Shown piece after piece: positions 21,583 through 24,194 of a stretch of 64,000 bases of DNA. The first letter of the stretch is position 1, and each line of letters begins with the position of its first letter. The stretch spans positions 1-64,000 of the forward strand of contig JAGAQA010000035.1 in NCBI GenBank assembly GCA_017622995.1, in the 5' to 3' direction. The notes beneath the pieces are model-generated. The model had not been told where the DNA came from. It was given only the letters and a program-made list of their open reading frames with translations, and did no database searches. Origin of the DNA: Oscillospiraceae bacterium. Its GTDB lineage: Bacteria > Bacillota > Clostridia > Oscillospirales > Oscillospiraceae. The position numbers and the translations under genes are program-made.

Positions 21583-21643
21583 CAAAACCGGATTTTTTAC
21601 GAAATCCGGTTTTGTAAAAGCGCTATTCTTCCTTCCTTGGAAG
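21583..21643 (-). promoter_or_regulatory. asnB leader: hexaloop hairpin plus terminator-like stem
   Basis: Leftward, CTTCC and GGAAG (21643-21628) enclose the six-base loop AAGGAA, with A at 1 and G at 4. Fourteen bases later a perfect 13-bp stem (21614-21583, arms CAAAACCGGATTT/AAATCCGGTTTTG) lies just before the ribosome site; it ends in four Us. The hairpin resembles the ANTAR-type loops of the glnN and glnA leaders. An alternative CTTC/GAAG tetraloop is possible. Confidence 0.5.
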
Positions 21644-21750
21644 CGGGGTTTTCAGGCGAATCACCGGAACCCTTCCGGGGCCCTTTTACGCAAAGGGAGC
21701 GGCTGCGGGGAAACTGCCGGGTTTCCCGGGCCCCTGAGGGAACCGATGGG

Positions 21751-23832
21751 TTAACGGACGCCAAACAGGATCTCGCCGTAGCTGGGATAGGGCCACACAT
21801 CGGCGGGAGTCACGGTCTCCATGGTATCCACGACGATCCGCAGATCCCGCATATCGTCCAGAATGGTGGTCTTGAACACATCGGCCAGAGCCTCCGCGTC
21901 GGGGGCGCTCTTGCTGTCCAGCAGATCCTTTTCCAGCTTTCCGGCTGCCCGGTAGGCGCTTGCCAGCAGGGCGCTGAGCTTGCGGTTCAGCTCCTCCTCG
22001 TAGTCCACGGCAAGGCCCAGGGCCTTCTTGGCCTGCAGCCGCTCCGTAAGGGTGGCGGTGTAGCCGGATACGGCGGGAAGCACATCTCTCCAGGTCATGT
22101 CCAGCATGGTCTGGGCTTCGATGTTGATGATCTTGGAGTAGTTCTCCAGCTTGACCTCATGCCGGGCGGTGAGCTCAGCTTCGGAATAAACCTTGTGGGA
22201 AACAAACAGGTCCACGTTCTTCTTGTCCAGCATATGGGCCAGGGCATCGGGGGTGGACTTCAGGTTCAGCAGGCCCCGTCTTTCCGCTTCCTCCACCCAG
22301 GAGGCATCGTAGCCGTCGCCGTTGAAGATGATGCGCTTGTGATCCCGGATGGTCTTACGGATCAGGTCGTGCATGGCGCCTTCAAAGTCCTCGGCGCCCT
22401 CCAGGATGTCGGCAAACTGCCTGAGCTCTTCCGCCACGATGGTGTTGAGCACGGTGTTGGTGCAGGAGATGGACTCGGCGGAGCCCAGCATACGGAACTC
22501 AAACTTGTTGCCGGTAAAGGCGAAGGGGCTGGTACGGTTCCGGTCGGTGGCATCTCTCTGGAACTTGGGCAGGGTGTGGACGCCGATGCGCAGCAATTCC
22601 TTTTCCTTGCCGTCGTAGGGAGTATCCTTCTCAATGGCCTCCAGGATTTCACTCAGGTCGGAGCCCAGGAACATGGACACGATGGCGGGAGGCGCCTCGT
22701 TGGCGCCCAGCCGGTGATCGTTGCCCGCGGAGGCCACGGAGATCCGCAGCAGATCCTGATATTCATCCACAGCCTTGATCACCGCGCACAGGAACAGCAG
22801 GAACTGGGCGTTTTCATAGGGGGTCTCGCCGGGCTCCAGCAGGTTCACGCCGGTATCGGTGGAAATGGACCAGTTGTTGTGCTTGCCGCTGCCGTTGACG
22901 CCGTCGAAGGGCTTCTCATGGAGCAGGCACACCAGGCCGTGGCGCTGGGCCACCTTGCGCATGAGCTCCATGGTCAGCTGGTTGTGGTCGGCAGCGATGT
23001 TGGTGGTGGTAAAGATGGGGGCCATCTCGTGCTGGGCGGGGGCTACCTCGTTGTGCTCGGTCTTGGCCAGAACACCCAGCTTCCACAGCTCCTCGTTCAG
23101 GTCCTTCATGTAGGCGGCAACCCGGGGCTTGATGGCGCCGAAGTAATGATCATCCAGCTCCTGACCCTTGGGGGCCTTGGCGCCGAACAGGGTGCGGCCG
23201 GTGTAGATCAGGTCCTTGCGCTTGTCGAACATGGCCTTGTCAACCAGGAAATACTCCTGCTCGGGGCCAACGGTGGTCTTGACGGAGGTCACATCGGCGT
23301 TTCCGAAGAGCTTCAGCACCCGCAGGGCCTGACGGTTGATGGCCTCCATGGACCGCAGCAGCGCCGTCTTCTGGTCCAGAGCCTCGCCGCCGTAGGAGCA
23401 GAACACCGTGGGAATGCACAATACGCCGTCCTTGATGAAGGCGTAGGAGGTGGCGTCCCAGGCGGTGTAGCCCCGGGCCTCAAAGGTGGCCCGCAGGCCG
23501 CCGGAGGGGAAGCTGGAAGCATCGGGCTCGCCCTGGATCAGCTCCTTGCCGGAGAACTCCATAATCACCTTGCCGCCGGCCTTGGGGGAGATGAAGGAGT
23601 CGTGCTTCTCGGCGGTGACGCCGGTCATGGGCTGGAACCAGTGGGTATAGTGGGTAACACCCTTCTCAATGGCCCAATCCTTCATGGCGTTGGCCACCAC
23701 GGTTGCCACATTCATATCCAGGTGCTTGCCCAGCTTGATGGTTCTCTGCAGGGCCTTGTAGGTTTCTTTGGGAAGCCGCGCCTCCATTGTGGCATCGTCA
23801 AATACCATAGAAGAGAAGATGTCGGTTACCAT
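21751..23832 (-). CDS. glnN: Glutamine synthetase type III
   Basis: A 693-residue ATP-dependent ammonia-assimilating enzyme of the GSIII class, large as usual (about 690-730). Diagnostic segments include [13 protein letters not shown], the block [10 protein letters not shown], and [12 protein letters not shown] in the C-terminal half. The start has GAAAGGGG upstream. It has its own promoter and an attenuator-like leader and heads the leftward set with asnB, gltB and gltD, so glutamine made here can feed GOGAT and AsnB. Confidence 0.95.
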
Positions 23833-23865
23833 AAAAAATTCCCCTTTCAGATGAAAATGAAAAAA

Positions 23866-23910
23866 GCGGCAAAGATCCCGTCAGAATTCTCTGAACGACA
23901 TCTTTGTCGC
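23866..23910 (-). promoter_or_regulatory. glnN leader attenuator with hexaloop hairpin
   Basis: Two exclusive structures share bases. A: GCGAC/GTCGT (23910-23895) with hexaloop AAAGAT (A1, G4). B: a terminator in which GCGACAAAGAT (23910-23900) pairs with ATCTTTGCCGC (23876-23866) with one mismatch, enclosing an inner hairpin and followed by six Us. Formation of A breaks B. This is the known ANTAR antitermination logic, although only one hexaloop hairpin is seen rather than the usual two. Confidence 0.65.
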
Positions 23911-23935
23911 TTTCGCTCGCTGTTTGCTTTACCGC

Positions 23936-23964
23936 ACTATAACACCGCAATTGCAATTTGTCAA
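23936..23964 (-). promoter_or_regulatory. glnN promoter
   Basis: Leftward TTGACA (23964-23959), 17 bases, TATAGT (23941-23936). Transcription should begin near 23929, about 20 bases before the hexaloop hairpin. Confidence 0.85.
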
Positions 23965-24096
23965 AGGGTAAATTGCATTTTTGGTGATGTACCTAATTCC
24001 GGAGCAGCCGGAGCTTTCCAAATCGTCATTTTCCACAGGAACCGTTTTTCAACCTGGGCATTGTCCAAAAACCGAAGAAAAATAACAGAAAACCCA

Positions 24097-24125
24097 TTGA
24101 CACCCGGGTTTATTCCGAGTATAAT
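24097..24125 (+). promoter_or_regulatory. glnA promoter
   Basis: Consensus TTGACA, 17 bases, TATAAT. The start point near 24132 coincides with the first base of the leader hairpin. Confidence 0.9.
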
Positions 24126-24131
24126 CTCTCC

Positions 24132-24194
24132 CAGTGAACAAGGATGTTTGCTGCGTCAGGGCGAAATGCCTTTGTCCGGTGAGCGTCCTTTTTT
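24132..24194 (+). promoter_or_regulatory. glnA leader attenuator with hexaloop hairpin
   Basis: Structure A: CAGTGAAC/GTTTGCTG (24132-24153), 8 bp with two G-U pairs, hexaloop AAGGAT (A1, G4). Structure B: terminator pairing GGATGTTTGCT (24142-24152) with GGTGAGCGTCC (24178-24188), 11 bp including G-U pairs, followed by six Us. A and B share 24142-24152 and exclude each other. The second gene of the transcript encodes an ANTAR protein, the expected reader of such a loop. Confidence 0.7.

Follow-up and report, generated by a model that had tools for sequence, protein, structure and literature searches.

How could an antiterminator of the ANTAR type control transcription through leaders that carry only one hexaloop hairpin, when the known targets of such proteins carry two? 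The question is raised by a stretch of 64,000 nucleotides (nt) from an Oscillospiraceae bacterium (GenBank assembly GCA_017622995.1, contig JAGAQA010000035.1, positions 1 to 64,000; hereafter the window), in which glnN and a glnA-like gene that lies in front of an ANTAR gene each possess such a leader. We propose, with a probability of roughly 0.78, that the leaders of glnA and glnN act as single-hexaloop transcription attenuators and belong to a NitR-like ANTAR regulon. At the level of sequence, this is supported by the hairpins, their overlap with terminators, the position of the promoters, conservation, the occurrence of a single hexaloop, the association with ANTAR genes, and the presence of one ANTAR match in the genome.

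The dual-hairpin ANTAR target was defined by Ramesh 2012 (PMC3369931), who already found nitrogen genes downstream of it, and two stem-loops were required in the searches of PMC8164766. According to Walshe 2022 (PMC8934654), the structural study of EutV, a dimer engages a single hexaloop at a time, and both hairpins are regarded as necessary for antitermination. The paper leaves open why two hairpins are needed, calls for bioinformatics on single-hexaloop sites, and expects such sites where no transcribing polymerase sets the pace.

In case of glnA, the leader hairpin CAGTGAAC[AAGGAT]GTTTGCTG consists of 8 base pairs (bp) and lies at 24132-24153 on the forward strand (+), while the glnN hairpin AGCGAC[AAAGAT]GTCGTT with its 6 bp lies at 23894-23911 on the reverse strand (-), both as described in an earlier, sequence-only reading of this DNA. 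As isolated hairpins, they have energies of -6.9 (glnA) and -5.7 kcal/mol (glnN). The claim of that reading that both hairpins share bases with the 5' arm of an intrinsic terminator is borne out as well, as the loop and the 3' arm of each hairpin are reused as terminator 5' arm. The terminators extend over 24136-24196 (+) for glnA and, including the U tract, over 23858-23913 (-) for glnN, and the minimum free energies of the terminator folds are -26.0 and -23.6, respectively. A near-consensus promoter precedes both leaders, TTGACA-17-TATAAT at 24097-24125 (+) with 12/12 matches in case of glnA-ANTAR, and TTGACA-17-TATAGT at 23936-23964 (-) in case of glnN. The glnA hairpin starts 6 nt past the -10 box, which would be at about +1. 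When both strands of the window were scanned for a hexaloop with overlapping terminator and promoter, two such triples were found, at the glnA and glnN sites only, and none in 40 dinucleotide shuffles. An Rfam scan of the window detected only a tRNA.

Two RNA models served to follow the element in relatives. R1 describes the terminator fold and is based on 29 seeds, and since the glnN leader (match at 23865-23913) and the glnA leader of the window are among these seeds, their R1 scores are no evidence. R1 alone also matches ordinary terminators, often on both strands, and therefore the promoter-based model R2 was built, which holds no window sequence and matches the glnA leader at 24097-24154. 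As R2 picks ordinary promoters at E-values (E) near 1e-3, only stronger R2 matches were examined. R1 gave 96 matches at E up to 1 on 80 non-seed loci of named genomes, some species of which may be identical or near-identical to seed genomes. In 59 of the 61 R1 strands examined from 42 of these loci, a hexaloop of the type [A/G]..G.. with three or more base pairs in its stem is present, as found by a scanner that favours G at the fourth position (G4). An accepted promoter is present in 45 of these strands, and the 16 strands without accepted promoter or without hexaloop were excluded. Together with 27 seed leaders (six of 33 seed modules were excluded as they had no promoter), nine others and 39 R2 matches, this resulted in 120 leaders with promoter, including the two window leaders and some near-duplicates such as L143/L150, L242/L244 and L243/L245. 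The R2 contribution goes back to 41 matches selected among those listed, with an E of about 5e-5 or lower and for the most part not at the ANTAR gene, from which L253 (gdhA, in the ANTAR-negative genome G214) and L262 were excluded because they had no acceptable hexaloop.

Selection required or favoured a promoter and G4 and, for the 27 seeds, also a C-G closing pair, so that the 120 leaders are biased in these respects. Their loop consensus is AAAGGC, the loop starts with A in 116 and with G in four of them, all have the G4 that was required or preferred by the scan, and the closing pair is C-G in 119. The stem starts 6-14 nt past the -10 box in 110 of the 120 leaders, and the 45 new leaders taken alone give the same picture (A at the first position, A1, in 44/45; a distance of 6-14 nt in 40/45). 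Transcription usually starts about 7 nt past the -10 box, and the hairpin is thus nearly the first thing that is transcribed. The hexaloop stem is 97.9% paired with compensatory changes, in a seed that was chosen for pairing. The glnN leaders of relatives often have the hairpin AAGGC[AAAGGC]GUCUU right after TTGACA-17-TATAAT or TTGACA-17-TAGAAT, with loop and 3' arm again forming the terminator 5' arm; the element was not found at glnN of the ANTAR-positive genomes G037, G043 and G055. Rfam returned one weak, sub-threshold match to a small RNA on 12 relative loci at E up to 0.05, and none that reached threshold.

Is there really only one hexaloop per leader? The sequence-only reading had regarded this as odd, and the observation stands: a second hexaloop within 50 nt was found in 3 of the 120 leaders, compared to 2.4 expected in shuffles, which is chance level. 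Eight glnN leaders have two modules with hexaloops 64-119 nt apart and apparently one terminator each, and one amtB leader has three modules. Such tandem modules look like repeated attenuators and not like a close P1-P2 pair. Judged from these sequence comparisons, the use of one hairpin per leader is conserved, which is our main finding.

Does the element occur together with ANTAR proteins? An ANTAR domain was found in 30 of 60 genomes (own genome included), in 29 of them by protein search. Among 197 genomes of the order, with the source genomes of the R1 seed (G000-G059) left out, R1 matches at 1e-4 were present in 58/100 ANTAR-positive versus 4/72 ANTAR-negative genomes, with a Fisher p of 1.4e-13 that is too small because the genomes are related. 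The comparison with R2, seed genomes included, resulted in 80/114 ANTAR-positive versus 2/83 ANTAR-negative genomes. Among ANTAR-negative genomes with R1 matches, inspection covered G052, whose match (L220) has no hexaloop, and G119, whose R2 match has one, and left out G075, G128 and G195. Both the element and an ANTAR protein are present in named relatives such as Clostridium cuniculi, Yanshouia hominis and Claveliimonas monacensis.

Which genes would belong to such a regulon? Elements of relatives lie upstream of glnN, amtB, asnA, asnB, purC, agcS and a glnQ-type ATPase gene, and R2 matches also precede amtB, purA, pyrG, asnA, purC, glnN, gdhA, carA, argG and an amidotransferase-like gene, so that the leader-bearing set spans glnN, glnA, amtB, purF, purC, purA, pyrG, asnA, asnB, gdhA, carA, argG and agcS. 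Examples of purF, amt, purA, gdhA, carA, argG, agcS, purC, asnB, asnA and pyrG scored above their NCBIfam cut-offs, the glnQ-type protein scored under the GlnQ equivalog cut-off, the amidotransferase-like gene and the gene behind leader L246 had no NCBIfam match, and the remaining names of genes downstream of R2 matches were assigned by eye from translations. L246 is a single-hexaloop leader before a 456-amino-acid protein, and the NCBIfam search of this protein was done at 1e-20. Promoter and hexaloop are found before the amidotransferase-like gene in L233, L241 and L258, with no clear terminator in L241 and L258.

In the whole own genome, the best R2 match precedes purF (AATGAGC[AAAGGC]GCTCGTT; E 0.001) and the second amtB. 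Five of the top six places (E 0.001-0.06) lie before purF, amtB, purC, the glnQ-type ATPase gene and glnA, those of purC (window position 37426), the glnQ-type gene and glnA with E-values of 0.04-0.06. The purC promoter TTGACA-17-TAGAAT (37426-37454, +) is followed by the leader of the purC-purA-purB-guaA gene cluster (leader 37461-37512, cluster 37564-42641, both +), which has the same layout with a 7-nt loop, AGAC[GAAAGGT]GTCT, inside the terminator and is matched by R1, of whose seed it is not a part, as well as by R2. The gene next to the ANTAR gene, pyrG (CTP synthase, 26214-27827, +), has its own single-hexaloop leader in some relatives. Further downstream, at about 29600-29760, the window contains a palindromic, repeat-like intergenic stretch (GTCATTCCGAGCC... 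GCAATGACAGG), perhaps a dispersed repeat.

The sequence-only reading had included asnB as third gene and had assumed that one regulator controls both glutamine synthetases (GS) and asparagine synthase. The hairpin CTTCC[AAGGAA]GGAAG is indeed present at 21628-21643, upstream of asnB (19978-21558, -), which lies downstream of the type III GS gene glnN (21751-23832, -), but it had to be rejected as a member of the system. It shares no bases with the terminator-like palindrome that follows, the promoter scan of the window lists no promoter there, neither R1 nor R2 matches it at E up to 10, and it occurs in none of 10 glnN-asnB intergenic stretches of relatives, five of which are only 18-32 nt long, while one (L158) has a different hexaloop. 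Such hairpins are expected about 0.07 times per 190-nt stretch at the window's own density. The palindrome itself, between glnN and asnB at 21586-21619 (-), is long and has an imperfect U tract and no overlapping hexaloop. Nevertheless, asnB and asnA of relatives do have single-hexaloop leaders, and as asnB of the window lies behind glnN, it may share the switch of glnN via read-through. The glnN-asnB intergenic stretch L162:1984-2310 (-) contains GGTGGCACCGCGG, which we take to be a T-box-like motif, and asnB may thus have another control there. Of the assumed common control, the part that holds is that the glnA and glnN leaders carry the A1/G4 switch and that the glnN type is conserved and tracks ANTAR. 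The phrase "both glutamine synthetases" is doubtful, because GlnA has lost its catalytic flap glutamate and its C-terminal tail, as outlined below.

The ANTAR gene (25522-26106, +), which had been assigned to the glnA operon and does lie behind glnA, is the sole ANTAR match of the genome, which has a size of 2.55 Mb and a rated completeness of 100%. Its product scores 58 bits with Pfam PF03861 (ANTAR; gathering score 27.3), and comparison with profiles and structures reveals a receiver-like domain, a long helix and the ANTAR domain. The Pfam receiver model does not match this protein; the receiver fold is supported by an AlphaFold model (predicted local distance difference test score 93.1) and by the best matches in the PDB, which are Rv1626, EutV (RNA-bound form 6ww6, template modelling score 0.73) and AmiR (complex 1qo0). 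The phospho-acceptor position is occupied by Asn59 here and by N in 80/103 and D in 9/103 relatives, and the acidic pair of the receiver is replaced by small residues in these 103 sequences. As the acceptor aspartate and the acidic pair are gone, a control by phosphorylation is unlikely for most members, and the input probably comes from a protein or a ligand, with the adjacent altered GlnA as first candidate. The RNA contact residues were taken from PMC8934654 and mapped by alignment, with an EutV numbering that appears to be offset by 2. The EutV contacts K149, E160 and M172 (here K152, E163 and M175) are invariant in 103/103 sequences. Taken together with the exchanges described below, the predicted binding face is changed but uniform relative to EutV.

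The glnA-like gene (24265-25470, +) encodes a protein of 401 amino acids with a short C-terminus, in which Lys289 replaces the catalytic flap glutamate. The protein scores 342.8 bits with the GlnA equivalog model of NCBIfam (TIGR00653), which is under the cut-off of 429.15, and structures of type I GS align over about 390 of its residues. Upstream of the ANTAR gene, glnA is found in 76 of the 80 loci from named genomes (a contig end truncates three of the remaining four, and L104 has no glnA) and in 28 of 29 loci of relatives (L004 has none). G019 has two glnA-ANTAR pairs on different contigs (L005, L031). After exclusion of copies with a missing N-terminus or low score, 100 ANTAR-linked GlnA sequences fall into two classes, longer ones and a clade of 83 short ones. 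In the short clade, the C-terminal tail is missing in 83/83 and the flap residue is Lys or Arg in 82/83; in the longer class, the flap glutamate is present in 12 of the 16 sequences without Lys/Arg, and L134 and L153 are longer but have Arg or Lys. The other active-site residues checked, at positions which we take to be those of the active site, are kept in 93-100 of the 100 sequences. In Bacillus-type GS, the flap glutamate is a catalytic residue in contact with bound glutamine, and the rings are connected by helices at the C-terminus, to which GlnR also binds (PMC9249791). The missing tail would correspond to one of these ring-joining helices.

How might these components work together? When the regulator is absent, the hexaloop and its 3' arm would be absorbed into the intrinsic terminator, and transcription would end after some 65-70 nt. 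The active ANTAR protein would attach to the A1/G4 hexaloop as soon as this appears close to the RNA 5' end, and its binding would then block the terminator 5' arm, so that RNA polymerase could read on. The same switch would operate in front of further genes for the uptake, synthesis or consumption of glutamine and ammonium, and the signal would presumably be nitrogen shortage.

Which other explanations could account for these leaders? It could be a canonical dual-hexaloop system in which we missed the partner hairpin, or in which that hairpin comes from the next tandem module or from a different RNA. This would agree with the known rule (PMC3369931, PMC8164766) and with the two or three modules in some glnN and amtB leaders of relatives, but we consider it quite improbable, since a stem that starts 6-14 nt past the -10 box leaves little or no RNA for an upstream P1 in 110/120 leaders, a second hexaloop nearby occurs at chance level, and the hexaloops of tandem modules are 64-119 nt apart and apparently have their own terminators, with only one module in other glnN leaders. 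Similarly improbable is an attenuation by another factor, such as a small molecule, another protein or leader translation, to which ANTAR would be linked only via shared nitrogen genes. Four ANTAR-negative genomes that keep hexaloop leaders would fit this idea, as would the partial change of EutV-type contact residues, but A1/G4 hexaloops are the known ANTAR ligand, the association with ANTAR is strong in genomes outside of model building, no Rfam family reached threshold in the window or in the 12 relative loci, and K152, E163 and M175 are invariant. That plain terminators carry hexaloops by chance is conceivable in view of the ordinary terminators matched by R1, and this explanation stands for the asnB hairpin of the window. 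For glnA and glnN it is contradicted by the 0/40 shuffles and by the agreement of loop, closing pair and promoter distance across 120 leaders of over a dozen gene families, which makes it extremely improbable.

Several points weigh against single-hexaloop attenuation by ANTAR. The glnN hairpin of the window lies 24 nt from the -10 box and not at +1, which is why this leader scores poorly in R2, and as a whole it was unmatched in the R2 searches of window and own genome. The own-genome R2 matches other than that of purF are individually not significant, the third is a false match, and the loops in front of purC and of the glnQ-type gene in this genome are 7 nt long. Most glnA leaders of relatives do not have the element, and control of glnA by it is thus clade-specific. 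No R1 match at 1e-4 was found in 42/100 ANTAR-positive genomes, and good hexaloop leaders exist in four genomes with no detected ANTAR gene, G020 (purC, L261, 99% complete), G051 (asnA, L263), G119 (purA, L229) and G009 (glnQ type, L219, 85% complete). Other RNA contacts of EutV are changed in the 103 relatives (Y164 to H in 96 and Q in 7, R168 to E in 101, N173 to D in 98, R142 to I in 90). Finally, induction by EutV is lowered by P1 deletion or P2 mutation (PMC3369931), and a longer linker abolishes antitermination (PMC8934654).

A separate question, compatible with single-hexaloop attenuation, is whether the glnA-like gene simply encodes an ordinary GS, with the ANTAR input coming from elsewhere, e.g. 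from PII. The conserved remaining active-site residues and the alignment with type I GS structures would agree with this, and we give it somewhat less than an even chance, as the flap exchange and the missing tail of the clade concern functions that are important in Bacillus-type GS (PMC9249791), the score is under the equivalog cut-off, and the genome also encodes two type III enzymes. It is reasonable to regard the protein as a putative GS-derived sensor. In the most specific form of this idea, which we put forward tentatively, the two proteins would be a glutamine-sensing pair that evolved from GS and a response regulator. A GS that has lost flap glutamate and tail but retained the substrate pocket would signal glutamine to an ANTAR partner that cannot be phosphorylated, and this partner would antiterminate at least a dozen nitrogen, purine and pyrimidine operons by binding one hexaloop at the extreme 5' end of each transcript, with P1 being dispensable.

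The leaders would be a large, conserved set of single-hexaloop sites that attenuate a polymerase in the course of transcription, a setting in which a single hexaloop had not been expected to be enough, and they offer a genome-wide glutamine regulon for Clostridia as well as a candidate route from a GS homologue to RNA. A literature search, with most subscription papers outside of its scope, found no report of single-hexaloop attenuators in Clostridia. The closest known system may be NitR of Clostridium saccharobutylicum, which is reported to be an ANTAR antiterminator that induces GS and glutamate synthase (GOGAT) genes under nitrogen limitation (PMC6316151). Both are ANTAR regulators of nitrogen assimilation; compared to NitR, the element is defined here, the proposed regulon extends to genes of purines, pyrimidines, asparagine, arginine and transport, and GlnA of the linked gene is the altered form. 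The NitR gene is also said to adjoin glnA. EutV of Enterococcus faecalis shares the architecture of receiver and ANTAR domain and the A1/G4 hexaloop that overlaps a terminator, but EutV needs P1 and P2 and is activated by phosphorylation, whereas here there is one hexaloop and no phospho-acceptor. AmiR of Pseudomonas aeruginosa is an ANTAR protein with a receiver-like domain that acts through its partner AmiC, and the AmiR-AmiC complex 1qo0 was among the structural matches. AmiC, however, is an amide-binding protein, whereas here a homologue of GS is the candidate partner and the RNA carries a single hexaloop. In case of GlnR/TnrA and GlnA of Bacillus, a regulator is steered by a GS protein, with GlnR being encoded in an operon with GS (PMC9249791), but unlike the candidate GlnA-ANTAR pair, these regulators bind DNA, and their GS keeps the flap glutamate and the C-terminal helices.

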